Shown here piece by piece: positions 3,708 through 38,200 of a DNA stretch of 64,000 bases. The notes beneath the pieces are model-generated. The model made no database searches. It saw nothing but the letters and a program-made list of their open reading frames with translations, and was not told the DNA's origin. How positions within the stretch are numbered: the first letter of the stretch is position 1; every line of letters begins with the position of its first letter. The position numbers and the translations under genes were made by a program. This stretch comes from Siphonodentalium dalli (lineage: Eukaryota > Mollusca > Scaphopoda > Gadilida > Siphonodentaliidae): contig CP136062.1 in NCBI GenBank assembly GCA_032622095.1, positions 55,905,849 to 55,969,848 on the forward strand. Reading direction: 5' to 3'.

Positions 3708-3713
3708 GCTGTG
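3708..3713 (+). repeat. Left target-site duplication (GCTGTG)
   Basis: GCTGTG directly precedes the left Polinton terminus AGAAGAATAG. The same 6 bp directly follow the right terminus at 19908-19913. Six base pairs is the usual Polinton duplication length. Confidence 0.9.
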
Positions 3714-4835
3714 AGAAGAATAGCCGTCTCGTTGGTGTCACATCTAAAAATAGAATTTGTGGGTCTAAAATTGGTTGTACTAAAATATTCCCAAAATATC
3801 AAAAACCCAAAAATTATTTTTCCAAAAAAAAAATTCAAAACTTCCAAAATTTATTTTTTCCAAAAAATTTCAAAACTTCCAAAAAATTTCAAAACCCCAA
3901 AATTTCAAAAGAAAAAATTTCAAAACCCTCAAAATTATTTCTCCAAAAAAAGTTTAAATAAAAAATTTATAACGAGTTTTCGGTTTCTGATAATCTCGAT
4001 ATTAAAATGTCGAATGTTAAATTATTTGCGCGTAATATCTTTCGTTATTTTTTTTGTTCAAATATTTTTCATGAAATTATTAATCGATGTTTATAAAATA
4101 GCTTTATTGGACATTGTGACCATCGATATGAATGCATACATTCCAGTGTTTTATCGGACGCAGTTCATATAATTGTCATACCTGAAAATAGACACCATTA
4201 CTTTTACATAAATAATAAAGAGCGTTTATTCTTTACACTCTCTCTACCCCAGATGAAGTTATTGAGTATATGACAGGTGTGTATTATCGTGAATTATTGG
4301 AAGTATTGAGATGTACTATGTTGAATCACTAACGGTCGAAAATTGTAATGTGAAATTACAACCCTCCAGAATGAATTGTCATATTCGCTGTACACGCAAT
4401 CACACACGCGACATTGGTGGTAACAATGTGTCTTTCACACCTTTGCTTTACCAAATGAATTATATTATTTCCTCGGTCACAGTTATATGCTATTCAGAAA
4501 ACATATCGATTTAATGTCTGAACAAACGGGTTAGTATCAATTAAGGTTGATAAACTGTGTCATTCACACGATAATTAGTTAGCCAAAACATGCATACATA
4601 TTACGTCAGGTCGTGAGACACTCAATTATAGAAATTGCTTTGATGACATTGTTATAACAACATTACGTAATAACCCCTTATCACTCCATTCACACTTACG
4701 ACCATTTTGTATGCCGAAAACTCCAGGTAGCACCGATGATGTAACATTATATCACTGCTATTGTACCAATGATAGGTTCAGACATGTTCGATGTTTAGAA
4801 ATAGATATTAACAATTGTTAAATGTGCAGGTGTTC
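3714..4835 (+). repeat. Polinton left terminal inverted repeat
   Basis: The segment is the inverse of 18808-19907. The outer part is almost identical: a 67-residue frame at 4311-4514 differs from its right-hand counterpart by one residue. The inner part carries more substitutions and a small indel near 4800-4822. The terminus is AGAAGAATAG, with the AG start usual for Polintons. Open frames inside look like by-products of the repeat and are not annotated as genes. Confidence 0.93.
3790..3960 (+). repeat. A-rich low-complexity tract inside the left TIR
   Basis: Degenerate reiterations of TTTCAAAA, TTCCAAAAAA and CCCAAAAATT run for about 170 bp. The same tract occurs inverted at about 19665-19835. 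It has strong purine/pyrimidine strand bias and no coding signal. Confidence 0.7.
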
Positions 4836-5078: not shown

Positions 5079-8000
5079 ATGGCTGAAGAAATAATGACAC
5101 CTCTGACAGTGGATGAAATTTATGAAATAGAATGTATTCTGCAAGACATCGAAGAATACGACAAGGCTATCGTAGCTTATCAACTGGATGAAGATATTAT
5201 TGAAGCATCTACGCTTTGTTCAGGAGATGACCCATGGCCGAACCAAATCGGATACGGAGAACATGATGCGCCTAAAAATGATGTTAACAACTCACAACCC
5301 GGTACAGCTGGACCATCAGGATTACAAAACCGAGAAGACGAACAGACACCTCATCAAGATGAAGCCGTAAAATCAGACAATCAAACAGCCGACAGTTCTG
5401 ATATTCAAATAACCGGATATAGCATTCGCAAAAGGAGTGAACGAACCTTCGGAAACAATTTGGCAACACAGAGAACATATGAGATCAAATTAGATGAAAT
5501 TTACAAAGAGAAAAAGTTAATCGACATATACAGGAATCTACATTCAATGTTCGAGGACACTATTCAAAGAGCTCGTGGAAATTTGGCTGACAATGATCTT
5601 GGCAGAGTTATCATTCACCATGAGAGTTTGGACAACCCTATAGTAGTTCCGTTACAAACGTTGCAAACGTTAAATGCTAACACTGTGATTGACAGAATCG
5701 AACTCGTTTTGAACAGCAACCAAACACTGACTGTTAATCAAAGTTTCCGCATAGATATAGGCACCATCGAGTTACCTAAAGGCGGAGCACGGAGGAAGAT
5801 AACGGCTTTACATGATGAAAGTGACAATCTAAGAAATAAAACATCGATCGTTACGATTGAAAATACCGACAATATGTGTATGGCTCGGGCTATCGCCACA
5901 TGTTGGTGTAAATTAAATATTTGCAGTCCTGATGAATGGCTAGAAATAACACAGAATAGAGGAACCAGAAATAATTTACAACTCATCATGGAATACAGAA
6001 AAGTACCGATCAATTATTACAAAAATGTGCAGCACAAAAAACGTACTGAACAAGGAAAATTAGCCAAAGCAATTAGTGTCATCGCAGGTGTATCAACAGA
6101 CAGACCAGCCAGTTTAGCAGATCTAAAAGCATTCGAGGACACTCTGAATTTGACAATACTAGTCGTCAGTGCTAGACTGGGTAATAAATTCATTACCAGC
6201 GCGCCTACAGACGGTATAGAAAGACCCGTGATATATTTATATCTCACTGCTAATGAACATTTCCACGCTATACAATCCATAACGGGATTCTTTAGCGATG
6301 TATATTTCTGTGTGCATTGTTTAAAACATTATTCACACAAAGGAAAGCATTATTGTGAACACACCTGTTTCGTGTGTAAAAGTGATAAATGTGAACAAAG
6401 TGAAAACAAAGAACATTGTTCAGATTGTAATATGACGTGTATGTCTCATCAATGTTTCGTGCGTCATAAAGCAAAACCTATTAATCAAGCTTCGAAAGAA
6501 ACGACAGCTCCTTGCGAAAAATGGTGGAAATGCTTGGACTGTACAAAAGTCATGGAGAGAGGGAAAAGATGTCCGAATCAACACGTGTGCGGAGAAACAT
6601 TTTGTAGATCGTGTGACAAATACACAATGGGAGCACACGAATGCTATGTAAGGGCCATACCTCCCGTTACTGATGATGAAAGAGCTAAATTCTGTTTCTT
6701 CGACTTCGAAACCATTCAACATGATATATTGGAATGTTCTGAAGGATATGCACCTTTACATACAAAGGGTTGCCAGGAGTGTAAAGAGGATCATATATGC
6801 AAGAAATGTGCTAAGTGTCAGGTGAGTCTTAACCTAATTGTAATATATATATATGTAACACATTACAGTCGAAATCACGATAACGTAACGCTCTTTATTA
6901 AAGGCGCGCATAAGTAGAGACGCTCTTTCATTTTTTAAAAATTATATTAGATTATCGCTGAACGCTCTTTAGCTGTTATCTCGCGTGTGCGGTTACCATA
7001 TAACAATAACATACTTGAATTCGACCAAAGTTAAGGGGTCTCAATATTAAAATTCAACTGAGTCACAGATGTTAAATCGAGTAATTAACTTTTTTAATTC
7101 TTGACACATTGAAAATGTGTAACATATTTTTTTGTGAAAAGAGATTTGTAATTGTTATATAGTAAACTAACGTAATATATAATTGTTTTAACTTTATTGA
7201 ACTTGATAGCTGCGTGTTTGAATCGACAATTATACAGGCTATATGTCGGATCATGAGATACATTTTTTAATATTGACACGTAGATTGGAACGAGTAATTT
7301 TTAGGATCAACCAACAAACAATAGTAATACGTCAACGCTCTTTATTAACGTTGAACCTATACCAAAACATTTTTTTTTTTTAAATAATTATCTGAACAAA
7401 GTGTAGACGTTTTATTTTGGTTTTTTTATTATCGATAAAGCTAGAGGTTAAAACGTTCAATTATTACTTTTCAGAACTGTTTAAAAACATGGTGCGGAAA
7501 AGTCCAGCATACACCGAACTTCCTCGTCGCCCAAACAGCTTGCTACGAATGCATGCATGAATCGTTGGAAGTGAAACCGAACTGTAGAAATTGCGGACCT
7601 CTATGTGATGCGTGTATCGACAGTGATGCGAAGAAGAAGAAGAAGAAGAGTGACCGAAATTTATGTTCGGATACATGCGGACTCCGAGAGGTTATATTTA
7701 GCGGTCCTGATACCGGTGAAAAGTTTGGAAAATGGTTATTCTCGGAACAACACAAGGGATTCATAGCACTGGCTCACAACTTCAAGGGTTACGATGGATA
7801 TTTTCTCATGGAATATCTCATTGATCAATCATTGAGACCCAAAGTTATATATAATGGATCCAAATTGATGTACCTATACGTGGAAAAAGATCTTCATATC
7901 AAAGTACTGGACAGTCTCAGCTTTCTACCAATGAAGTTGGCACTGTTACCGAAAACTTTCGGTCTGGATGGCGAGAAAAAAGGATGGTTCCCGCACTTTT

Positions 8001-10303
8001 TCAATAAATCAGCCAACCAGAATTATGAAGGACCCTATCCGGATGCCAAATATTACGGCGCTGATTATATGAGTGTGGCTGAACGAAAAGACTTCACGAA
8101 ATGGCACGCTGCTCAAACAAATGCAGTTTTCATCTTCAAGAAAGAATTATCGGATTATTGTCGTAGTGATGTCAATATTTTGAGACAAGCTTGCATAAAA
8201 TTCAGAACCCACATCATGAATGCGACTGGAAATATACAACCCGTAATTGACGAGTTTTCTGGCGATATGAAGTTCAAACTGGTTGGTGCTGTTGATCCAT
8301 TCCAATACGTTACAATCGCATCGGTATGTATGGGTATATTCAGAACGAAATTCGTCGACGAGGAATGGAGAGTGCGTCTAAGTACCGAACGGAAAACGTG
8401 GCTTCCAGCTAAATGTAAAGATGGAACTTTGTCTATTTTATACAAAGGTGAATGGGTTCAAGAAACAAAACTTGAAGATGAACTCGGCGTACAAATTCGT
8501 GAGAAAGAATTTCTCAAATCCCAGATAGCTCGAATCCCCAAGACATCATATAAAGATCAATACAGCAAAAGTTCGATTCAATGGCTGGAATGGATGATGT
8601 TCAAAGACAAAGTTCACATAACTCACGCATTGAACGGCCGTGAAAAGAAACTCGATGATGCAAAGTACAGATTGGATGGCTATTGCGAAGAATTAAACAC
8701 GGCATTCGAATTTCACGGATGTCAATTCCATGGATGTGAACTTTGTCTGAGTCACGATAGAGACGTAGTCAAGAATCCGATAACCAACCAGACACCTAAT
8801 GAATTATACGGACTCACACAGAAAAAGAAGAAGTTTATAGAAAGTCGAGGTATGAAATATGTGTGCATTTGGGAACACGAGTTCGTCGCTGCTCGACAGA
8901 CTAATCCGGAGCTTCGTGACTTCATCGCTAGCTTAGACATTGTTGACCGGCTAGAGCCTAGAGACAGTTTCTTCGGCGGCAGAACGAATGCAACTAAATT
9001 ACACTACAAAACTGCCGTTGGTGAGAAAATACACTATTTTGACTTCACGTCGCTGTATCCAAGTGTGCTCAAATACTCTCGCTACCCGATTGGACACCCG
9101 AAAATCATTTTGGGCGATGACATTACCGAGCTTAAGGATTACTTCGGAATAGCGCAAGTCAAGATTTTACCACCTAATGGACTCTATCACCCCGTATTAC
9201 CGTATCGATCCGAAGGTAAACTGAAGTTTCCACTGTGTAGGACTTGTGCTGATAATGAAAATCAACGACCTTGCACGTGTACGTGCCAACAGAGAGCTAT
9301 TACCGGTGTTTGGTGTATTCCTGAACTGGAGACAGCTGTCAAAGTGGGATACAAGATTCTCAAAATATATGAAATATACCATTGGACCGAAACGTCAGAC
9401 TATAGCCAACAAAATGGATTATTCACGGAATATATAAACACATTCTTAAAGTTCAAGCAGCAGGCTAGCGGTCCTCCGGATTGGATAAAATCTAACGAAG
9501 ACATGGATAAATACATCACAGCGTATAAAGACAACGAAGGTATATTACTGGACAGAGAAAGCATCGAAAAGAATCCAGGACTGAGGCAAATCAGTAAGCT
9601 CATGCTCAACTCATTTTGGGGGAAGCTAGGCCAAAACCAGAATTTCAAACAGACCGAGTATTTCCATGAATCGGAACAAGACAATCTATTCCAGCTCATT
9701 TCAAATCCAATAAAACAAATGGAAAATTTTCATGTCATAACTGATGACATTCTTCAAATGGAGTGGACCTATCGAAAAGACTGTGTGCCTTGTGGAGCAG
9801 CGAATAACATATATTTGGCCACATTCACGACGTGCCACGCTCGATTAATGCTATATGAAGTTATTCATTCCTTGGACAGAAGAGTATTATATTACGACAC
9901 GGATAGTTGTGTATTTAGCAGCACTGAGGATCAAATTAATCCCCCACTGGGCGACTATTTGGGACAACTGACCAGCGAGCTAGATCCTGATGAATACATC
10001 GAAGAATTTGTTTCTGGAGGCCCCAAGAATTACGCTTATCGAACAAATAAAGCTAAAGAGACGTGTAAAGTTCGGGGGTTCTCTTTGAACTTTGAAAATT
10101 CACAGTTCATCAATTTCCAGACGATTAAAGAGCTGTTAGAATCTGGAAGCACAGTGCCCATCACCACAACCAATCCAAGGAAAATATGCAGATCGAAAGG
10201 AAAAAGAAAAATATATAACAGATCTGAGGACAAACAGTACCGAGTTGTTTATACCAAACGCAGACGATTGGATAACATGGATACACTGCCATGTGGATAT
10301 TGA
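5079..10303 (+). CDS. polB: Polinton protein-primed DNA polymerase B, two exons
   Basis: Exons 5079-6821 and 7475-10303 join in phase 0 (donor CAG/GTGAGT, acceptor TTTTCAG) and give about 1523 residues. The acidic N-terminus is followed by an OTU-protease-like segment (D264, C267 in DNMCMARAI; HFH at 394-396) and a Cys/His-rich zinc-binding stretch (about 410-530). The 3'-5' exonuclease motifs are DFE (542-544, ExoI), N683/D688 (ExoII) and Y809/D813 (ExoIII). Polymerase motifs are DFTSLYPS from D1104 (A), K1289 with NSFWG (B) and YYDTDS at 1387-1392 (C). The product replicates the linear element, with priming presumably by a protein linked to the TIR ends. ExoI is in exon 1 and all later motifs are in exon 2, so splicing is needed for a working enzyme. 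It is the leftmost gene, is open throughout, and no frame break was seen. The OTU assignment is by motif only. Confidence 0.95.
6822..7474 (+). other. Intron of the polymerase gene
   Basis: The 653-bp intron has a consensus donor (CAG/GTGAGT) and a pyrimidine-rich acceptor (TATTACTTTTCAG). It lies in phase 0, so both flanking frames join exactly. The AT-rich interior holds four copies of ACGCTCTTT, at about 6888, 6920, 6962 and 7335, a motif also present in the TIRs. Confidence 0.85.
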
Positions 10304-10694: not shown

Positions 10695-11255
10695 TTATTT
10701 TCTCAACGAAGAGTCACCATAATTCCAGATTATTCCGAATGACCAGATTAATTCATTCTCTAATTCTGAAATATATTTCGATTTACTTGTAGAAATGTAA
10801 TCCAAAATCACGCCGCTGTTAAGTATTTGTTCAATCGTGAACAGTGTACACGGTTCACGGAGAATGATATATCCGTGAATTATTGTCACTTCTTCAAAAC
10901 TTCTCTGATTGAAAACCCAGTCTCGGTATTCTGCAAATCTCACAAAGTTATCTCCAATAAGTTCACGAATGTCATGTATTTTGTTTTTAGGAACGCCTCT
11001 AAATACCCAGCGATTTGAAAACATTTGATTCAATATATCTTGTAAGAAATCAGTTTCAAATTCAGACCTAGCAATCAAAGATTTCAATCGTTGTACAGGA
11101 AAATATCCTTCATCTATATTCTTCAGTATTATTTTAATTTCTCTTATAAACCAATTGTGTAGTAGTTGTTTTTTTATTTCTGGATTTATAGTTGACATTT
11201 CAATTAGCTGATTGTATATTTTCTCCAGTATTTCTGCGGGTAGTATTCTCTCCAT
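10695..11255 (-). CDS. F-box-like protein of the Polinton (hypothetical)
   Basis: The 186-residue product starts at the ATG at 11255. The reading frame stays open upstream only because it runs through a low-complexity Pro/Ala/Gly repeat, so the internal ATG is preferred. Residues 4-17 (ILPAEILEKIYNQL) match the start of an F-box (LPxEIxxxI...L), followed by a helical segment. The rest is mixed alpha/beta with a conserved-looking WVF...VP centre that I do not recognise. F-box proteins recruit substrates to SCF ubiquitin ligases, and large DNA viruses use them against host factors. That role here is inference. The gene lies antisense in the leader intron of the PC4-like gene. No RNA evidence is available. 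Confidence 0.6.
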   Translation of the reverse strand: MERILPAEILEKIYNQLIEMSTINPEIKKQLLHNWFIREIKIILKNIDEGYFPVQRLKSLIARSEFETDFLQDILNQMFSNRWVFRGVPKNKIHDIRELIGDNFVRFAEYRDWVFNQRSFEEVTIIHGYIILREPCTLFTIEQILNSGVILDYISTSKSKYISELENELIWSFGIIWNYGDSSLRK

Positions 11256-11289
11256 AATGAACTGACTCAATGACTCAATTTTCTTATTC

Positions 11290-11515
11290 TTATTGAGTAT
11301 GCGGGCGGGGCGGGCCTCCCCTCCCCCCAGGGCGGGGCGGGGCTCCCCCTCCCCAGGGCGGGCGGGGGCGGGCGGGCGGGCGGGCCTCCCCTCCCCAGGG
11401 CGGGCGGGGCGGGCGGGGCGGGCGGGCGGGCCTCCCCTCCCCAGGGCGGGCGGGGCGGGCGGGGGCGGGCCTCCCCTCCCCAGGGCGGGGCGGGCGGGGG
11501 CGGGCCTCCCCCCAC
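11290..11515 (+). repeat. GC-rich minisatellite with quadruplex-forming potential
   Basis: About 225 bp consist almost only of GGGCGGGC, GGGGCGGG and CCTCCCCTCCCCAG blocks repeated with a period of roughly 35-45 bp. Runs of three to five G at short spacing on the plus strand give many G-quadruplex possibilities. The composition contrasts sharply with the AT-rich element. Because few stops occur, several long Pro/Ala/Gly open frames cross it on both strands; these are artefacts. Confidence 0.9.
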
Positions 11516-11629
11516 ACCCAACATCCACCAAACACATGAGCGGACTCCTTTCGGACTTTTGTATTCTCGATGTGTAACTGATAAGTAATGTTTTGTTTTC
11601 TTATTTTCCAGGTTCAAAAATAAAAAACA

Positions 11630-12241
11630 ATGACTGATCAACCCGATGTTGAAGGAAACCAACGGACTGAAACCAACGAGAGGGCGTTCCATCCACAATG
11701 CTTAGCCCCGTTAGGAAATGACATTTTCCTATTTGACGGCCGATTCCAGGGAAATCTGTATATACACATACGAGAGTGCGGTGAAAGTTCTGCGGGCCAT
11801 AAATTTCCGACAAAATCTGGAATAACATTAAATCTAAGGAGATTCAAAGAGTTGAAATCTTACTTAGCAGATATACATCAAGAAGTGGTCAGTTATCGTA
11901 CCGGTGAAGACGATGTATTCATGAGACGTCATATCGGAGGGAATTTCTTCATTACGATAAAGAGCGGCATCCCGCGTGTTGACATTCGCAGGTATTGGCT
12001 GCCTGAACATTCAGATGATTTGTGTGCAACCAAATACGGAATATCTCTGACATTCGACCAATTTGAAGAACTAGTTGGAGCTATATTCGTCCTGTGTGCT
12101 AATATTCCTGAAATTGATCAGACTGTGCAGTGCTATTTGACCGACGATCACCAAAACCAGGAAGGATCTTTAAGATGTATGGAATGCTGCCCCAACGGCG
12201 ATAGAACGTGTTTGATTAACCGGATGCAGACATTGATCTAA
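11630..12241 (+). CDS. Tandem PC4-like (coactivator p15-type) protein
   Basis: The 203-residue product has two repeats of a PC4-like fold. Repeat 1 (about 23-85) has a strand pair, a KSGITLNL strand and then a helix (RFKELKSYL). Repeat 2 (about 100-160) is the clearer match: FFITIKSGIPRVDIRRYW, then TKYGISLTFDQFEEL. This follows the PC4 order of beta hairpin, R-x-Y/W, a GISL-type strand and a C-terminal helix. PC4 proteins bind single-stranded DNA and melted promoters and help RNA polymerase II initiation or DNA repair. The gene lies 18 nt after a likely splice acceptor and ends 11 nt before the TBP-like gene, which suggests a joint role in transcription. An alternative role is a replication single-strand-binding protein. 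Assignment rests on pattern, not a search. Confidence 0.7.
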   Translation: MTDQPDVEGNQRTETNERAFHPQCLAPLGNDIFLFDGRFQGNLYIHIRECGESSAGHKFPTKSGITLNLRRFKELKSYLADIHQEVVSYRTGEDDVFMRRHIGGNFFITIKSGIPRVDIRRYWLPEHSDDLCATKYGISLTFDQFEELVGAIFVLCANIPEIDQTVQCYLTDDHQNQEGSLRCMECCPNGDRTCLINRMQTLI

Positions 12242-12252
12242 ACATTACTCCT

Positions 12253-12776
12253 ATGATGCTACGAATAACTAATGTCGTATGTTCTGCAGATTTGAACTGT
12301 TCTATTAATCTAAGGGATTTGACACTCGGCTGTTCGAACATTGAATACAATTCCAAAAAGTTTAGCGGAGTTGTATGGAAACATTCTAAATTCGGTGGAT
12401 GTTGCCTCGTGTTTAACACGGGTAAAATCGTTGTTAACGGGCTTTCTGATAGTGTCAAACAGACACGAGTTCGATTGCGTCGGTACGCTCGACATATTCA
12501 AAAATGTGGTTGGCGAGTGAGATTAAATTCCATAAAAATTTTGACAATGTCTGCATTTTGTCAGTTAAATGGAAAACTTGACTTAAACGTTTTAGTGAAA
12601 CTTATGGAATGTTCTTACGAATTAGAGCTGTTCCTGCGGCAATGTTCAGACGTGAGAAAATACATTTTACATGCTTTCATAATGGAAAAATTGTGATTAC
12701 GGGCATTAAAAGTGAAAAGCAGATGTTAAATATTGTATATCCTACCATATGTGAACTTGAATTACTTTCAGAATAA
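12253..12776 (+). CDS. TATA-binding-protein-like factor, with one frame break
   Basis: The first open frame (12253-12696) carries TBP repeat 1 nearly complete: an N-terminal ITNVVCSADLNC strand, NIEYNSKKF, FNTGKIVVNG, and a helix with ARHIQKCG. Repeat 2 begins (KILTMSAFCQLNG... YELELF) but loses frame at about 12631-12635. From 12633 another frame carries the expected rest of repeat 2, including FHNGKIVITG, to a stop at 12774-12776. A one-base length change at this point accounts for it. Combined length is about 174 residues, close to the TBP core (about 180) without the variable N-terminal tail. TBP bends TATA DNA to nucleate RNA polymerase assembly. The gene starts at tandem ATGs 11 nt after the PC4-like stop, and an AATAAA overlaps its own stop. 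Confidence 0.85.
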
Positions 12777-13106: not shown

Positions 13107-13553
13107 TTACAGAATATATTTCAACATAAAATCCTTAATAAATAAATCATTATACATATAATTATTGGCACTGAAACGTCTCATTATATTTTCTAGACTG
13201 TATCCGCACAGTTTATAGAATGCAAAGTATATGCAATAGGGACCGCATATATTAGAACCCTGTAATCTGTAAGCATTGCACTCGTAACGAGGTCCATTCA
13301 ATAACAACACGTGTTTAAATCGTCCGTTGTAACAATCGGGTTTTAATCCCATAGGGTCGAAGAACTCTGATGCGTTATGTTCCTGGAATGTCATCAATAT
13401 CCAGTGGCGTCCAGGTTGGCTACTCTCGTCTGTGTTAACTATATACATCCGGGGATATTGGATATAAAGAGGTAATTTGTCTATGGGACAAACATCTATC
13501 TCATTATGGTTTGTGAAACTATTTATCGCCCTCATGAGTCCGCGTGTATTCAT
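13107..13553 (-). CDS. Adenovirus-type cysteine protease of the Polinton
   Basis: The 148-residue product has the catalytic set of the adenain/Ulp1 fold in the right order: H50 (GRHWILM), D66 (EFFDPMG), Q98 (YRLQGSN) and C103 (ICGPYC). Q98 would form the oxyanion hole. In Polintons this enzyme is thought to mature capsid proteins. Length is near the usual 150-200. Its ATG overlaps the major capsid stop by one base (TAATG on the minus strand). It is the last gene of the leftward cluster. Confidence 0.92.
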   Translation of the reverse strand: MNTRGLMRAINSFTNHNEIDVCPIDKLPLYIQYPRMYIVNTDESSQPGRHWILMTFQEHNASEFFDPMGLKPDCYNGRFKHVLLLNGPRYECNAYRLQGSNICGPYCIYFAFYKLCGYSLENIMRRFSANNYMYNDLFIKDFMLKYIL

Positions 13554-14813
13554 TATTCAATGCAAACTTTACGACTCTCGTCAACTTTGAGAAAGGCAGG
13601 AAATTTTGCGTAAACGATTACAGTACAATTGTCTTTCAAAGCCGATGAGAATTTAATCTCGAGGCGTGTGTGACCTTTGTGCGGTATGACCCTGTCGTGA
13701 TTAATTCCTTGCGGGTTTATCCGATATATGCAATAACCTTTCGCATAATCCTCATAAGTAATATGAACGGCTTTTCGTTTCGCATCTTTTATTATCGTAT
13801 TGTAAGCTTCTACATATTCCTTACTGGTAAAGTTCGGTTGGAGTGCTTGGGCGGGCATAGACTGCCCGTTGACGTAAAATCCGACGAAGTTGCATCCAAA
13901 AGTCGCAAAGTTGAACGGGTTCTTATCGCGTGAACCGCTTTCAGCCTTTGATGATACTAAGCCAATAATACAGCTACTGGGTACGTTTCCTTGAAATAGA
14001 TTATCTTCTCCCAAACTGAATGCACCTTTTGACACTGTATACGTCTTTATGATAGATTTTGAAAAAGGATAACACGCGTTCTTTTTCTTGAGTGACTCAG
14101 TATGACTGAGTAATACACCGGGGTTAACTTTCACAGTGGCTAGTCTCAAATTAGCTTCCTGTATTTTCAACTTGTATGTCTCAGTGGTTCCCCCGCATAC
14201 ATCAGTCTAAAAACATCTCTCGTCTGCCAGAATTTTAACGTGAGCGGGAGACCATTTAGTAGTAATTTGTCCTGTTGGAAGAAGTCAAGCTGAATTGATC
14301 CCATAATATCCATTATTTGACTAGTACGGGTTGTTTTGGACCTGTAATACAGGCCAGAGTTCCCGCTTTTCGAATCTGCCAGGTCCATACCACCTGCCGT
14401 GTCCTTTTCGAACGCTTGTCCATGTAGCTGTTCCTTACGTTCAGTTTCTAAGAGTACATCGAAATATGCTTTGTATGGATAATTCGGCCCGACTTGACTC
14501 ACGGGAACTTGCTGTATATTCAAATCGACCTGCGAAAATATTGAATGTAGGGGTGCATTTATCAGACTCACATCGTCATTAACGGTTAGAGCCGAACCAT
14601 CTTGCTTGGTTATTTTGAGTTTGAGAAGTAGCAATGTCCGTTTGAGGTCCATGTAGGTTGTGGCCATGGCGGGAATATTGAACTCTAAAGCTGCAGTGTC
14701 TGTCAGCTGATTCACGGGTCTGTAGTTTATCCATTCTGTCGTTTGTATTCCGCTGTCAACCGCGGGCGATTCAAATAATGGCAATTTAGAGGTATGGTAC
14801 TCTCTTTATTCAT
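13553..14813 (-). CDS. Major capsid protein (double jelly roll), frame-broken
   Basis: Two overlapping frames encode the halves of a Polinton PY-type major capsid protein. The N-terminal half (14784-14167) carries TEWINYRPV and a first jelly roll of alternating strands. The C-terminal half (about 14190-13553) carries the second jelly roll, ending at KVCIE. They fail to join because of a one-base length difference in the five-G run near 14186-14190. A second one-base break near 14784-14789 separates the body from the likely start ATG at 14813; the in-frame ATG at 14817 is stopped by TAA after three codons. Combined length is about 415 residues. Neighbours are protease and penton, the normal virion module. 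The breaks may be decay or assembly errors in short runs; slippage at the G run is possible but unproven. Confidence 0.85.
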
Positions 14814-15556: not shown

Positions 15557-16057
15557 CTAGTTTCTATTTTGTTTCAAATGAGAATCAATGTCCATCTCTT
15601 CTCTTATAGTTTTATCAACATCACTGAATATATACTTGAAGGCAGACCACTGGTTATACGGAATACTTATAATCGCGGGAGTGTTATTCACAACTCGCCT
15701 AATGCGTGTATAAATGCGCCCTTGATTATTACATAATGTAACAGTAATGTTTGATCGTATTGTCCACTTTTTCACGAACCCACAGGGGTGTTGTTCGTAA
15801 TCATGGGGGCGTGACTCATTCGTATGACGTAATTCATAGTCCCCCGTCTGACGTGGTATCTTCTTTGGAACTAATATAACCGGTAGTGACAGAGTTATTA
15901 CCATAATAGTAATTCCTATCCATTTAAGGAGATTCATATGTAGACGACCTCGTTCTGTTTGAAACATATTCGTCAAGGTATCTGTTCTATTATTCATGAT
16001 TGTAATGGTTTCCCCCTCGGATAGCTTGCTCTTATTAATTTTGATATCTGTCGACAT
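15557..16057 (-). CDS. Single-pass membrane protein with possible PC4-like C-terminus
   Basis: The 166-residue product starts at the ATG at 16057 and overlaps the integrase 3' end by 23 bp. The N-terminal about 42 residues are polar. One strong transmembrane segment follows (LLKWIGITIMVITLSLPVIL, about 44-63), then a basic linker. The C-terminal domain (about 93-155: KWTIRSNITVTL, RIYTRIRRVV, AIISIPYNQWSAFKYIF) shows strands then a QW-containing helix, which resembles the end of a PC4 domain. If real, this would be a third PC4-like unit in the element, tied to a membrane. Function is unknown; a virion membrane protein is one option. Confidence 0.65.
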   Translation of the reverse strand: MSTDIKINKSKLSEGETITIMNNRTDTLTNMFQTERGRLHMNLLKWIGITIMVITLSLPVILVPKKIPRQTGDYELRHTNESRPHDYEQHPCGFVKKWTIRSNITVTLCNNQGRIYTRIRRVVNNTPAIISIPYNQWSAFKYIFSDVDKTIREEMDIDSHLKQNRN

Positions 16058-17144
16058 CAGACTCTAAAATCCATGAATTAAATTTGTCAGGCCATGAATG
16101 CCAGTGCACCAGGACTTCAGTTTGACCCTTTCGTTTCCTCTTTTTGACAATTTTATCTATTCTGTAAACTGTTTCGTCATCAACGCGCACCCCTTGAAGT
16201 TCTGACTCGTAGAAAGCACCCTCAATGTTTTCATCCAAGAAATCTGTCAATGTATACAAGGGTATGTTCTGCCTGTAAAACCTCTTAGTCACTTTGAACA
16301 ACTCTCCAGTCCATTTCTGAGAATATTCTCGGTCAAAAACTGCTTTGGTGTGTGATATTCTAACGATATCATTTACATTGTATTTGAACTTTTTCTTCAA
16401 TTTACTTTTAACACCTCCCTTCTGTCTTATTAACCACTGATCGAGACGAGACTCATCTTCATTCTCAACAGTTATGGAGTCAGGGGTGGTGCCTAACGAA
16501 CGATGTATTGTATGGTTATAACTTTTCACAATATCTTGTAGAATGTCGATATATCTAGCATTATTATGCTTTATCATATAACGTGAAATCTTCTGCTTTA
16601 TAGTTTTTATGACCCGTTCCGAATAATTGGCTTTCATTTCGTTTTGCGTAAAAATTTGAGATATATGAAGACCCTTAAGGTAACTTTTGACCCGTTTGTT
16701 TGTGAACTCCGAACCGCGATCCGTTCGGAGGACGCGAGGGGTTCTTCCACCTTCAAATATATGTTTCATAGCATTGATCACATTAATTGCAGTTTTCCTC
16801 TTTATAGCTTCACACCATAACTTCCTAGAAAAAATGTCAATCATTACTAACACGTAGGTGTAATTGTCGTTGTCTTTGGAAACATCATTCATATCCATGA
16901 GGTCTCCATCCCATTGACTGTCAGAAGCGTTTACAATAACACGAGACCTCGGGAATTTTCGTCTAACACTTTTTGTCAGGGAATAACTTTCATGATTTTG
17001 TAGCCACGCCACAATCTCGCGCTTGGAAATGTTGTGCTTATTTTCAGATTTTACAGTCTGATGCAACTTTGTAGCTCCTGAGTACGATGCGGGGTGACCC
17101 GGATTAAAATAAATTGAACTCAAATAATCTTTCCAATCGGCCAT
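16035..17144 (-). CDS. Polinton integrase with C-terminal chromodomain
   Basis: The 369-residue product starts at the ATG at 17144; the frame extends only three codons upstream, to a GTG. The N-terminal helical region is followed by a retroviral-type rve core with catalytic D81 (DGDLMDM), D142 (RTDRGSEF) and E176 (ANYSERVIK). A basic linker precedes a chromodomain (about 322-366: YRIDKIVKKRKRKG, VHWHSWPDKFNSWI) with the aromatic W residues of the family. The enzyme inserts the element and makes the 6-bp target duplication; the chromodomain probably steers it to marked chromatin. It lies within the leftward cluster, just after the linker protein. Confidence 0.95.
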   Translation of the reverse strand: MADWKDYLSSIYFNPGHPASYSGATKLHQTVKSENKHNISKREIVAWLQNHESYSLTKSVRRKFPRSRVIVNASDSQWDGDLMDMNDVSKDNDNYTYVLVMIDIFSRKLWCEAIKRKTAINVINAMKHIFEGGRTPRVLRTDRGSEFTNKRVKSYLKGLHISQIFTQNEMKANYSERVIKTIKQKISRYMIKHNNARYIDILQDIVKSYNHTIHRSLGTTPDSITVENEDESRLDQWLIRQKGGVKSKLKKKFKYNVNDIVRISHTKAVFDREYSQKWTGELFKVTKRFYRQNIPLYTLTDFLDENIEGAFYESELQGVRVDDETVYRIDKIVKKRKRKGQTEVLVHWHSWPDKFNSWILESDVDRYQN

Positions 17145-17881: not shown

Positions 17882-18547
17882 TTACGTAGTAGGTACGTAA
17901 ATTATAGGGTCTTGGTTGGGAAACACGTCTGTTCGTAGCCTGTATTTATCCTCAGTGTGAGGGGACATATCTATTATAAGATACGCAAATGGTTTCTTCA
18001 TACAATCCTTGTATGCCTCAATGAGTACTTTAGATTTACCGGGATACAATTGTCTACCCAATGTGGAAATTTGTGATCCATCCCTCAAATTTTTGAATAA
18101 AATTAGATATCCTGTGTTTAAGGCTATAGTTCTCGCAGCCTTGCCTTGTGCGTATAAATTTTGTGAAATAAACAGCACCGAAAGACAGCGATGATGAGTT
18201 TGCTGCGTAAATAGTGTTTCAATCTCTTTTTGGTCAATAATGCGATGCATCAAGTCGTCTAATATTAACATATTATGTTTACCGTCAGCAAATTCTTCGA
18301 TTTCTGTTTGGGTAGGTAATCCTTGATGCATGACCAAATTTTCGATTGATGATTCAATTTCATCATAGAAATTTTGATAAATACCGTAACAGTACATTAT
18401 TTTCTTAGGTGGATCTCTAGAATACATTCCATTAAGATTTTGCAGGAATCTGTAGACCCATCTCGTCTTACCAGAACCAGTTGGTCCGGTGATGCAAATA
18501 CTAGAACAAGGTTCAAACGGTATGGAGCTATGGTTAATTGGACCCAT
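17882..18547 (-). CDS. Genome-packaging ATPase (FtsK/HerA-like)
   Basis: The 221-residue product has a Walker A motif at 21-28 (GPTGSGKT) and Walker B at 93-98 (MLILDD), followed by a Q/N sensor-type segment (LSVLFISQN). Size and layout match the A32-like ATPases of Polintons and related viruses, which pump DNA into capsids. It is the first gene of the leftward cluster, nearest the right TIR. The ATG at 18547 is the first Met and follows an A-rich leader. Confidence 0.93.
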   Translation of the reverse strand: MGPINHSSIPFEPCSSICITGPTGSGKTRWVYRFLQNLNGMYSRDPPKKIMYCYGIYQNFYDEIESSIENLVMHQGLPTQTEIEEFADGKHNMLILDDLMHRIIDQKEIETLFTQQTHHRCLSVLFISQNLYAQGKAARTIALNTGYLILFKNLRDGSQISTLGRQLYPGKSKVLIEAYKDCMKKPFAYLIIDMSPHTEDKYRLRTDVFPNQDPIIYVPTT

Positions 18548-18807: not shown

Positions 18808-19907
18808 GAACACCTGCACATTATGTATTTTCTAAACATCGAACATGTCTGAACCTATCATTGGTACAATAGCAGTGATATAATGTTACATCATCGGTGC
18901 TACCTGTAGTTTCGGTATATGATCGTAAGTGTGACTGGAGTGATAAGTGGTTATTACGTAATGTTGTTATAACAATGTCATCAAAGCAATGTCTATAATT
19001 GAGTGTCCTGGACGTAATATGTATGCATGTTTTGGCTAACTAATTATCGTGTGAATGACACAGTTTATCAACCTTAATTGATACTAACCCGTTTGTTCAG
19101 ACATTAAATCGATATGTTTTCTGAATAGCATATAACTGTGACCGGGGAAATAATATAATTCATTTGGTAAAGCAAAGGTGTGAAAGACACATTGTTACCA
19201 CCAATGTCGCGTGTGTGATTGCGTGTACAGCGAATATGACAATTCATTCTGGAGGGTTGTAATTTCACATTACAATTTTCGACCGTTAGTGATTCAACAT
19301 AGTACATCTCAATACTTCCAATAATTCACGATAATACACACCTGTCATATACTCAATAACTTCATCTGGGGTAGAGAGAGTGTAAAGAATAAACGCTCTT
19401 TATTATTTATGTAAAAGTAATGGTGTCTATTTTCAGGTATGACAATTATATGAACTGCGTCCGATAAAACACTGGAATGTATGCATTCATATCGATGGTC
19501 ACAATGTCCAATAAAGCTATTTTCTAAACATCGATTAATAATTTCATGAAAAATATTTGAACAAAAAAAATAACGAAAGATATTACGCGCAAATAATTTA
19601 ACATTCGACATTTTAATATCGAGATTATCAGAAACCGAAAACTCGTTATAAATTTTTTATTTAAACTTTTTTTGGAGAAATAATTTTGAGGGTTTTGAAA
19701 TTTTTTCTTTTGAAATTTTGGGGTTTTGAAATTTTTTGGAAGTTTTGAAATTTTTTGGAAAAAATAAATTTTGGAAGTTTTGAAATTTTTTTTTGGAAAA
19801 ATAATTTTTGGGTTTTTGATATTTTGGGAATATTTTAGTACAACCAATTTTAGACCCACAAATTCTATTTTTAGATGTGACACCAACGAGACGGCTATTC
19901 TTCTTCT
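18808..19907 (-). repeat. Polinton right terminal inverted repeat
   Basis: Reverse complement of 3714-4835, about 1100 bp. On the outward strand it begins AGAAGAAGAATAG, one AGA-type triplet longer than the left end. The outer part is near-identical to the left TIR, and the inner edge (from the GTGTTC block) is more diverged. It contains the inverted A-rich tract and one AACGCTCTTTATT motif at 19392-19404. Confidence 0.93.
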
Positions 19908-19913
19908 GCTGTG
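19908..19913 (+). repeat. Right target-site duplication (GCTGTG)
   Basis: Identical to 3708-3713 and directly adjacent to the right terminus. Confidence 0.9.
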
Positions 19914-22999: not shown

Positions 23000-23935
23000 A
23001 CAAGTCGCCCATACTCGTATCACAGCTGTGTCAAGTACAATCAGATAATTCCAGTTGAGCTAAAGTCGCCACACGAGCATGGCTGATGTACAGATCATTC
23101 CGGTTGAGCTAATTCGCGCACCATCATGGCTGATGTAGAAAACGTTGTCATGATCCTCTTTTTTTATGTCGAGTTTGATTATTACACCAATGACATATCA
23201 TATACTGTGTATTATAATCATGTATCCTGTGTCACATACTGTGATTTGAATGAATAAAACATTATTGAACTTGAGTATATATCGTGTTTTTTCCAGTTGA
23301 GCTAAATTCGCCGGACCAACATGGCTCATTGTACTACTAAGTATTATAGCGTTACGGTTGAGTTATACTAACTATAGTCGACTGACTGTATATATGTGGT
23401 TCTCGTCGGCCAACTTATAGTCACACGACCAGCATGATTTGACTGTATACATAATAATGGACCTCAGACCAGCACATTGTGAGTGAATACATGTGGTTCA
23501 TGTCGGCTGAAGTACATGTATAGTCGCCTGACCAGCGGCATATGATTGTATACATATAGCCGCCATACCATCACAGTCCGAATGTATACATGTGTTCGCT
23601 GATATAGATACAGCCGCAGTTGCCAGACCATGCTGGTTTACTTGTAAATATAATATATTATTGCTGTTATTAGAACTATAATCGCCGGAGCACCATAGTT
23701 TGTTTGTGCACATAGATGGACGCTGTCGGCTGACATTTTGTCGCCGCACTAGACTTGTTCCTTGTATTCCTTGTATACATTACCTATAGTCGCCGGCAAT
23801 CATAATTTGTATGTATTTGTAGATGGACGCTGTCGGCTAACCTATAGTCGCCGGACCAACATAGTTTGTCTGCACATCTGTACATACATTGACACTGTCG
23901 GCTGACCTATAGTCGCCTCACCAGCACGGTTGCTT
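23000..23935. repeat. Degenerate minisatellite beside the fibrinogen gene
   Basis: Diverged units of about 55-70 bp carry the core GTCGGCTGACCTATAGTCGC followed by CGGACCAACATGGTTTG. About a dozen units can be followed, less regular at the left (GTTGAGCTAAATTCGCC variants) and clearer near 23700-23930. The last unit runs into the 3' end of the fibrinogen-domain frame. Confidence 0.7.
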
Positions 23936-24590
23936 CAATTTGAATATTATACCTCTGGTTCTCCCACCACAGTAGGCCTGTGTTGTGATTTGATAGTGGC
24001 GTTGTCGTATATATCCCATTTAGAGCGCTGTTAGTACAGCATTTGTACCACCATCCAGATTTGTATGCCGCAACGCACTGTCTGCCACATGATGATGCCT
24101 TGTTGTCGTTATCCAGCGTACTGAATGGAATTCCGTTACTATGTGCCATGGAATCTCCCGCATCTCCGCTATATCCACCAACAGTCAGTACGTATTCTCC
24201 TGCCGCATCTCCCACGCTGAAACTTGAGTATCTTGCATATACTTCTGTTCCGTCCAATCTCTTCATTATGACTAATAACTCGCCCGATCCGTAGTTTGTG
24301 AGTTGGTGAATGTTTTCCAAGCCGAACCAGTAGCTTCCATCCAGTTCCACGTCACCGAAGGTAGAAAGAAACTCGTTCCATCCTCGGTTGAAATCTACAG
24401 AACCATCTCTTCTTTGTTGAATGGCAGACCAGCCGCCGCCATGTGACGTCATGTCGCAGACGATATCCATTTTGGAAGCGCCACCTATGTTGATAGGGTA
24501 GACACCGTCACATATAAATCCGGCCTCTCTCCACTCCTTGCAATCTACCGGGTAAACAATCAACTTTAATACAATATATATAAGCAACAT
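23907..24590 (-). CDS. Fibrinogen-related domain protein (FReD)
   Basis: The 227-residue frame encodes a complete fibrinogen C-terminal domain: CKEWREAGF...GVYPI, GGGWSAIQQRRDGSVDFNRGW, YWFGLENIHQLT, a calcium-loop region (DNDNKASSC) and GWWYKCCTNSALNGIY, ending W-x-N-x-RYNI...VLVRRL. Expected cysteines are present. Invertebrate FReDs are secreted lectins for carbohydrate or acetyl groups in innate immunity. The first 16 residues (ATG at 24590) are hydrophobic and could be a short signal peptide. They could equally be the end of an intron, because AG dinucleotides before TTGATT and ATTGC could act as acceptors. A possible upstream exon on the same strand is at 33874-34179. No frame break was seen. 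Confidence 0.88.
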   Translation of the reverse strand: MLLIYIVLKLIVYPVDCKEWREAGFICDGVYPINIGGASKMDIVCDMTSHGGGWSAIQQRRDGSVDFNRGWNEFLSTFGDVELDGSYWFGLENIHQLTNYGSGELLVIMKRLDGTEVYARYSSFSVGDAAGEYVLTVGGYSGDAGDSMAHSNGIPFSTLDNDNKASSCGRQCVAAYKSGWWYKCCTNSALNGIYTTTPLSNHNTGLLWWENQRYNIQIEATVLVRRL

Positions 24591-35241: not shown

Positions 35242-38200
35242 AAAAAATGGCTCGATTATACTAAATGGCCGGACTGGTGAGGATCAGGGTGTTGGAAAAC
35301 TTACATGCCGTGATGCATCTGTCGTTGATTACACATTATGTTCTGCAGCTGCCCTACCCATTATTGAGAACTTTGTTGTACTTGACTACACCAATATTGC
35401 CTCAGATATTCACTGCCAAATCAAAAAGGTGCTACACCTCGAAGATATAGACCGACCCCCCCCCCCCCCCAAAATTTACGCTATATTGAGTCCGCTATAA
35501 TACCATCTCGCGTAAAAAAAATGGGACCAAAATAGTGAAATGGAGTTTGTAGCAAATTTTAATTACGATAAAATTTTGACACTCAGCAATATGTTAACCG
35601 CCGCTTATACAAATTTTACTAGTACTGACCAGTTGAATAACATAGTTAGCTCAGTGACTGACATTTTGGTTTCGTCCGCTGAAAAAACACTGGGAACATA
35701 TACATGTAAGATCCCCCCAAATAAGAAAGCGGCCAGGAATAGTAAACATAAAGCATGGTTTAACAAGTCCTGTCAGACTGCCAGAGTAAGATACCGACAA
35801 GCGACCCGACAACATAAAACCAAACGAAATAACCACACAGAACAAAATATGCGACATGCATGCCATGTCTATATATGTTAAATGGATGGAGCAATCAAAT
35901 CACATAGAGCATTAATATCGCAAGAGCTAGCTTCAATGAAAAAATCTAAACCTAAAAGTTTTTGGAAAAAAATGAAAGATTTTAAACCCCGCTCCCATAG
36001 TGGGGTAAATCTCGAGATATTCAGTGAATACTTCAAAGAAATTAATGCCACAACACATACCAATGACCCACAAATAGAAAATTATATCACTAAAGAATTT
36101 AGCACAGATACCGAAGATGATCTCAATAGACCTATATCACAGGATGAAGTATGATTTGCCATAAGACAACTTAAAAATGGTAAGTCCTGTGGACATGACC
36201 GTGTGCAGAACGAATACATTAAAGCATCTTCCAAACTGTTACTAAATGTTTATTGCCGAATGTTTAACATTATACTAGATACCGGGCAAATACCAGAAGA
36301 CTGGGTTACTGGAACAATTGTTCCAATATATAAAAATAAAGGTGATGCCACAAATCCGATTAACTATAGACCTATAACAATTCTCAGCTGCTTAGGAAAA
36401 CTCTTCACAAAAATTTTAACCATTCGACTTAACAAATTCACAGAAGAAAATGAAATTATTTCACCAAACCAAGCTGGCTTTCGTAAAAATTACTCCACTT
36501 CGGACAACATCTTTGCCCTCTATGTATTGTTCGAACTTAGCAAGAGGATGGAAAAGAGATTATTCTGTGCATTTATTGACTTCCAAAAAGCATTTGACAC
36601 AGTGTGGAGACAAGGCCTATGGTACAAACTTATTAAAACAGGAATTAATTGGAAAATATTCAGAATAATTACTAACATGTATAGTCAAGTAAAATCCCGC
36701 GTACAAATTGGCAATGAGTAATCAATCTACTTCCGATGTCTTGCAGGGGTCACGCAAGGTAACAGTTTATCACATTTGCTCTTCTCGTTGTACCTTAATG
36801 ACATCGAAACATACTTACAAGCACATAAAATTAACGCACTGAGCACTATCAATAACGAAATAGAGAAAACACTCAATGAGTACATAAAACTCTTCATTGT
36901 ATTATATGCCGATGATACAGTACTCATGGCCGAAAGTACAAGATACTTGAAATATCTGCTTGGCCGGTTTGAGGAATACTGTGACAAATGGAATCTGAGA
37001 GTGAATGTGGAAAAGACAAAAATTATGTGTTTCTCAAAACACTCACTATAAAAAAAACGAAATTTTATTTTAAGGGCCAGAAAATTGACGTAGTTACAAA
37101 ATTTATATATCTTGGTATCACTTTATGTAGAACAGGATCTTTTATTTCGGCAAAGAATATTTTAGCGGAAAAAGCCACTCGAGCAATGTATACAATAATA
37201 GGAAAAGCAAGGAAACATTCATTGACTATAATTAATCAATTGGATTTATTTGATTCGCATGTTCTCCCTATCCTTCTGTATGGAAGTGAGATCTGGGGTT
37301 TTGGGAATAATGATGTTTTGGAGACTGTCCAGAGAAAATTCATCAAACATATCTTGAAGCTAAAACCCTCAACCCCTAACTTCATGATTTATAGTGAAAC
37401 TGGTGTATTACCAGTTGATATCCACATTAGTACAAAAATTATTAAATATTGGTGCAAGGTTGTCAACAGTGAGCAAGAAAATTACCAAAATGTACTATTC
37501 CGATTATGCAGATCCATAATGGACAATACAGTAAATACAGAACACAAGTTTTAATGGCTTGACAAAGTTAAGGATATACTTAACCAATCAGGGCAGAGCC
37601 ATATGTGGAACTGTAACCATATCACAAATACTGACCAATTCACAGTCCTCTATGCAAATTCAGAACTGGAAATCATAAATTGCCAGTTGAAACCGGTCGT
37701 TGGAGTGGATTGGAGATAAATAACAGAAAATGCCCAGTATGTCAATCGGGCCAAATTGGCGATGAATTCCACTATCTGTTAGAATGTCAAAAATTCTCAA
37801 AGGCCCGCCAACGACTTTTGACAAAGTTTGTTAATCAAAGACCAAACACTATAGTAATGAGTGAAATACTTAATAATAACGATGCAGTGCACTTGAGAAA
37901 GTTGTGTGAGTTTATTAAGCTTGTAAGCAGAGAGTTTAAATTAAACTGAGTCTAGGTTGTTGTTGTTGTTGTTGTTGTTGATGTGATTAGAACATATGAG
38001 ATAGTCATCAGTGGCACAAATGGGAAATGTCTGACCTACACAGGTGATATGCGTACGCTAAACCATAAGTGGGACCTTTCAGTGGGACGCATGTCATGTG
38101 TCTTGGTCTGACATGTCCCTGATGCGACCCTTATTATGACCGATACACTCCTGACCTTGTGGTAAATGTCGACAAATCAACTTATTTATTACTCCGGCAT

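Follow-up and report, generated by a model that had tools for sequence, protein, structure and literature searches.

Small animal virus-like transposons are, to our knowledge, assumed to rely on the promoters and initiation factors of their hosts. The locus described here raises the question of whether one such element, a Polinton, supplies its own promoter recognition. A first-pass annotation of the window (the whole 64-kb stretch of DNA analysed) had placed a gene for a TATA-binding protein (TBP)-like protein inside a Polinton bounded by terminal inverted repeats (TIRs), and the boundaries of the element bear this out. The left TIR spans 3714..4801 and the right TIR 18829..19907, the latter delimited by the inverted-repeat match and, at 19907, by the target duplication. 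The arm at 3714-4607 is 100% complementary to 19011-19904 over 894 nt, and the left arm continues with 4617-4705 and 4718-4801. GCTGTG occupies the six bases directly outside both ends (3708..3713 and 19908..19913), a 6-bp target-site duplication that encloses an element of 16,194 bp. Full identity of the TIRs across this block means that the element inserted recently or that its arms have been kept alike.

The genes of the Polinton are tightly packed and fall mostly into two strand blocks. On the plus strand, the DNA polymerase (PolB) is predicted to be encoded by two exons: an N-terminal part (5079..6821) with an open frame of 581 aa and no Pfam match of its own, which ends at a GT donor, and a polymerase part (7475..10303) that follows an AG acceptor and matches PF03175 (E 1.6e-51 for 7553-10300). 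The predicted GT-AG intron (6822-7474, 653 nt) keeps the frame, and both exons are open. Downstream lie a gene for a protein with two PC4 domains (11630..12241) and the TBP gene, both on the same strand as PolB. The minus-strand block comprises an adenain-like cysteine protease (13107..13553; PF00770, E 4.9e-4, 20.3 bits, 1 bit below the cut-off of 21.3), a candidate major capsid protein (13553..14805), an integrase with an rve core and a chromodomain (16035..17144; PF00665, E 4.7e-15, and PF00385, E 8.1e-8) and a probable packaging ATPase (17882..18547), which has 16 weak P-loop matches, all below their cut-offs, including Pox_A32 (PF04665, E 0.0029). The capsid label is one that we presume from the position in the element. 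The frames considered as candidates for the double jelly-roll major capsid protein and the minor capsid protein gave no Pfam match. The major capsid candidate is split over two overlapping frames (14167-14805 and 13553-14206), and its open frame extends well upstream of the first ATG (14667).

Several other features were seen in passing. A lone minus-strand gene within the plus-strand block, between the PolB and PC4 genes, encodes an uncharacterised 187-aa protein (10695..11258) that has no match in Pfam or PHROGs. Between it and the PC4 gene, 11303-11511 consists of very GC-rich tandem repeats with units of about 27-46 nt, and GC content is 0.845 for 11290-11540 vs about 0.38 in the adjoining parts. 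Elsewhere in the window there are inverted copies of imperfect palindromes close to its left end (25-445), a minus-strand gene for a 227-aa protein that by eye has the look of a fibrinogen-related domain and a signal peptide (23907-24590), and plus-strand reverse transcriptase pieces, by eye of the non-LTR type (35540-37554).

The identification of the gene as TBP holds up on several grounds. Both halves of the TBP saddle named in the first-pass annotation were recovered on the plus strand, with GKIVVNG in the ATG frame (12253..12696, 147 codons), which covers repeat 1 and runs into repeat 2, and GKIVITG in a second frame (12582..12776), which encodes the remainder of repeat 2. Each piece scores above the gathering cut-off of PF00352 (22.9 bits), the first with 75.5 bits (E 3e-21) and the second with 25.4 bits (E 1.3e-5). 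Among sequences of solved structures, the first piece has 35 distinct matches (best E 1.3e-19), 34 of which are named TBP, TFIID, or TBP fusions; the remaining one is the ECU04_1440 protein. Archaeal TBP models of NCBIfam also match, far below their cut-offs, and a comparison with PHROGs gave no match. A profile built from 36 relatives gives 161.7 bits for the stop-to-stop piece enclosing the first frame and 65.2 bits for the second. Of all 1575 stop-to-stop pieces in the window, the next best reaches 9.0 bits, and the best over 20 first-order simulated windows is 8.5 bits; by this profile there is no second TBP gene elsewhere in the 64 kb.

The two pieces are separated by a single frame change shortly after 12633, inside repeat 2. 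We left it unmended and analysed the pieces separately throughout. Repeat 2 is complete and in a single frame in six of seven relatives (the exception is P0006) and in all ten relatives of a second set, so the copy in the window is either damaged or carries an assembly indel. An intron was ruled out as the cause, as the two pieces overlap, and programmed frameshifting was set aside, as the relatives read in one frame. With its frame broken, this copy of TBP is probably not functional, unless the assembly itself introduced the break. The combination of broken TBP and capsid frames with identical TIRs fits either a young insertion that is already damaged or assembly indels. We give very little credence to the reading of the gene as a dead relic, a chance capture decaying in one element: the frame break and the split capsid candidate are what such decay would leave, yet the TIRs are identical over 894 nt, PolB is open across its one predicted intron, and the TBP is one member of a large and conserved family.

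The size of this family became apparent when the first TBP piece was used as a query. It retrieved seven relatives with 37-50% identity, and a profile of these seven matched 2610 proteins at E<=1e-3. Of these, 120 were listed, and together with P0006 they form the set of 121 proteins used for residue counts below. Two of the listed matches, P0020 and P0067, are filed under genome bins of the bacteria Sedimenticola and Candidatus Thiodiazotropha. Both bacterial groups include bivalve symbionts, so these entries may be contaminating host DNA.

Few of the family matches listed carry an organism name; those that do also include entries from a clam (Mercenaria mercenaria P0023 and P0043, both on chromosome-sized contigs) and an oyster (Crassostrea virginica P0107). 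These entries, which were seen without genomic context, are annotated as host genes and already bear names such as TATA-box-binding protein-like 1 or 2-like, which gives the family a bearing on genome annotation. They would suit a host family of divergent TBP paralogues, expanded in bivalves and similar animals, one member of which was captured once by a Polinton and is carried as cargo without a role. We consider this unlikely. The listed members are about 170 aa long and many lie on contigs of 0.6-10 kb, from which we infer uninterrupted, virus-like frames. Cluster sizes reach 288 and 198 sequences among the matches listed, which would suit a repeated element or else reflect repeated assemblies. 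In the accessible part of the Mercenaria genome paper, the Maverick row reads 1.69 with 7091 entries (PMC8905726), which we take as percent of the genome and number of copies; the terms TATA and TBP do not occur in that paper. Finally, the TBP gene is packed like most other genes of the Polinton. The same gene is likely to occur in other Polintons, and the Polinton home of the family was seen for one element, since the relatives come without genomic context. Scans of viral_contigs with single proteins (TBP, PC4, PolB, integrase, and ATPase) and of genome_contigs with TBP recovered no relative; such scans rely on a small number of exact 8-residue patterns and have low sensitivity, and this absence therefore says little.

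The family is separate from the cellular and archaeal TBPs with which it was compared. Over residues 1-124, the window protein has 32% identity to human TBP and 37-54% to 36 family rows, the nearest of which is P0090 (54%). A tree was built on 44 rows, namely 36 proteins drawn from the set of 121, window residues 1-124, and seven references. In it the family and the window protein form one clade vs cellular TBPs, archaeal TBPs, and TRF2, with support of 100/99 and a stem of 1.16. After removal of 14 family rows (30 rows remain) the family is still one clade (100/100). The suggestion in the first-pass annotation that the capture is old is supported by these sequence comparisons, given the lower identity to human TBP than within the family and the long-stemmed clade. 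In the reduced tree the sister of the family may be TRF2, eukaryotic TBP, or both: branching with TRF2 is not well supported (85/70), and sisterhood to eukaryotic TBP is not rejected (p-AU 0.227). On this tree we regard an origin from TRF2 as weak.

A member of this family, the relative P0010, is confidently predicted to fold as a two-repeat TBP saddle. The AlphaFold2 model, computed on 36 relatives, has a pLDDT of 96.5 and matches 44 PDB entries at E<=0.001 with TM scores of 0.80-0.91 by query length, all of which are TBP chains or TBP-containing complexes. Support for the identity of the gene as TBP thereby extends from profile and sequence matches to the predicted fold of a relative.

We then read the diagnostic residues of the family, using the roles that kink, base-contact, TFIIA-contact, and other residues have in cellular TBP. 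Two acidic TFIIB contacts and a DNA-contact phenylalanine of TBP are described in the accessible part of PMC7221094. The phenylalanines that kink DNA are mostly retained: position 197 is F in 113 of 121 proteins and Y in the other 8, position 214 is F in all 121, and position 288 is F in 117. Position 305 is F in 97 and differs in 24 (20 H, 3 Y, 1 gap). The TFIIB contacts are similarly kept, with E284 in 105/121, E286 in 114/121 (plus 4 with D), and L287 in 108/121. In the window protein, F197, F214, E284, E286, L287, and F288 are encoded by the ATG frame, and the second frame supplies F305. The second-frame row carries unrelated letters at 286-288, since those columns precede the frame change; these were disregarded and the residues read from the ATG frame.

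The base contacts follow another pattern. N167 is kept in 120/121 and T313 in 114/121, whereas T222 is replaced by N (94/121) or Q (22/121) and N257 by T (118/121); V259 is replaced by S in 117/121. The window protein has N, T, and S at 222, 257, and 259. The family thus mostly reads N, N/Q, T, T at the four base contacts and does not match the N, T, N, T of cellular TBP, which six cellular and archaeal TBPs share (with S at the last position in Pyrococcus). A separate HMMER run gave the same alignment for the T222 and N257 columns. At the TFIIA contacts, E191 is replaced by R in 101/121 (E in the window) and R208 by G in 112/121 (G in the window), and the window protein has S at R205. Given these differences at the TFIIA contacts, cofactor use may differ from that of cellular TBP.

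With the kink and TFIIB residues kept and the base contacts changed, the family is suggested still to bend core-promoter DNA and hand it to TFIIB while reading a changed sequence. The proposal that the element supplies its own promoter recognition fits this residue pattern. A TFIIB-binding surface joined to altered base contacts could also be the mark of a competitor, and the protein might act as an antagonist: by vying with host TBP for promoters or for TFIIB, it would damp transcription of the host or of competing elements. This seems to us improbable: kink residues are kept in most family members, which indicates real promoter binding, and the neighbouring PC4 gene is a partner suited to transcription or replication of the element.

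That neighbour had been described as another transcription-type gene 11 nt upstream of TBP. The gap is exactly this, and the plus-strand gene has a product of 203 aa in which two PC4 domains are recognised (PF02229, E 3.3e-15, two stretches); scored alone, the halves match with E 3.6e-8 and 1e-5. A protein search yielded 87 candidates, none of which reached E<=0.01, and single-sequence structure prediction was poor (mean pLDDT 37). A pyrimidine-rich stretch resembling a splice acceptor (11590-11611) ends in CAG 18 nt before the PC4 ATG, and no donor was identified; from this acceptor-like sequence, PC4 and TBP may share one spliced transcript. Cellular PC4 binds single-stranded or melted DNA. 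This property, together with the location of TBP, PC4, and PolB on one strand, leaves room for the pair to serve replication or packaging, by bending and single-strand binding at the terminal repeats and not at promoters. We rate such a role as very improbable, in view of the retained TFIIB-contact residues, for which we know of no use in replication.

The best reading, which we consider moderately probable, is that the Polinton TBP directs host TFIIB and RNA polymerase II to the element's own promoters, with the double PC4 protein. The element carries genes for its own TATA-binding protein and for a double PC4 protein. Its TBP would bind and kink core-promoter DNA, probably with a preference for a sequence somewhat different from that of cellular TBP, since two of the four base-contacting residues differ. 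Its conserved stirrup would then dock host TFIIB, by which host RNA polymerase II would be recruited to Polinton promoters without a need for TFIID, while the PC4 protein probably aids promoter opening or replication. Host TFIIB is the likely partner, because most family members retain the glutamates and a Pfam scan of 16 pieces of the element gave no match to TFIIB or RNA polymerase. Of 15 putative starts of genes or exons, 7 have TATA-like words within the 120 nt upstream, a count from a single element copy without a control; the outermost genes, PolB and ATPase, have TATAAAAATATA and TATATAAG upstream, respectively. We do not claim a shared promoter motif for the Polinton genes, as one copy is too few to infer it.

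A bolder proposal, which we offer tentatively and hold to be somewhat short of probable, is that animal Polintons include a widespread lineage equipped with a self-contained module for RNA polymerase II initiation, composed of TBP and tandem PC4. The changes of Thr222 to Asn/Gln and Asn257 to Thr would then constitute a second TATA code, poorly read by host TFIID and served by host TFIIB, and the TBPs would form a separate family alongside cellular TBP and its paralogues. The findings suggest a mobile element that itself supplies what it needs to have its genes transcribed by host RNA polymerase.

With Polintons/Mavericks (Polintoviricetes, adintoviruses) the element shares the TIRs, the 6-bp duplication, PolB, the rve integrase with a chromodomain, a protease-like gene, and the packed two-block layout. 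It differs in its TBP and PC4 genes: none of the words TATA, TBP, or PC4 appears in the main text of any Polinton, adintovirus, or virophage paper that we searched, and a literature search found no report of a Polinton TBP, with mention possible in supplements or subscription papers. Papers that name both polintons and TBP place TBPs, in their accessible parts, in mirusviruses and related elements or in giant or large algal viruses. The PC4 protein has the PF02229 domain of the PC4/SUB1 coactivator and differs in carrying two in tandem.

Compared with cellular proteins, P0010 is 31% identical both to metazoan TBP and to TRF2 (TBPL1) across 170 alignment columns. The TNVVC start is common to TRF2 and the family, and the sequence taken for TRF2 in our alignment has only one of the four kink phenylalanines.

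The TBP-like proteins of giant viruses and mirusviruses resemble the window family as virus-borne, two-lobe TBPs. According to the accessible part of PMC10132985, a TBP gene cluster is found in 59% of mirusvirus genomes vs 0% of Nucleocytoviricota; giant-virus proteins named TBP are present among the viral fold matches listed. Viral proteins match the fold of P0010 less well than cellular TBP does (best of 50 listed, TM 0.77 with 18% identity, vs TM 0.80-0.91). In the surveyed dsDNA viruses, as far as the accessible part of PMC7221094 describes them, TBPs vary at the TFIIB glutamates, with about 40% conservation of the first (C.L3.2), and nearly all viruses with a surveyed TBP also had a TFIIB-like protein. 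Those pairs thus combine a viral TFIIB with variable glutamates, whereas the window family mostly keeps the glutamates and the 16 pieces of its element have no TFIIB match. The Polinton TBP would therefore keep a host TFIIB surface that is often missing from the viral TBPs in that part of the survey.

In its working, the Polinton TBP may resemble the TBP mimics of beta- and gammaherpesviruses (BcRF1, ORF24, and UL87), which, in the accessible part of PMC4893493, send host RNA polymerase II to TATT promoters. By analogy, both would combine a viral TBP-like protein, host RNA polymerase II, and a changed TATA element. The herpesvirus mimics act as part of six viral proteins together in that account, whereas TBP and PC4 alone are visible in the Polinton. 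If our reading is correct, the Polinton would be an example of a far smaller genome than that of a giant virus or herpesvirus with its own promoter reader.
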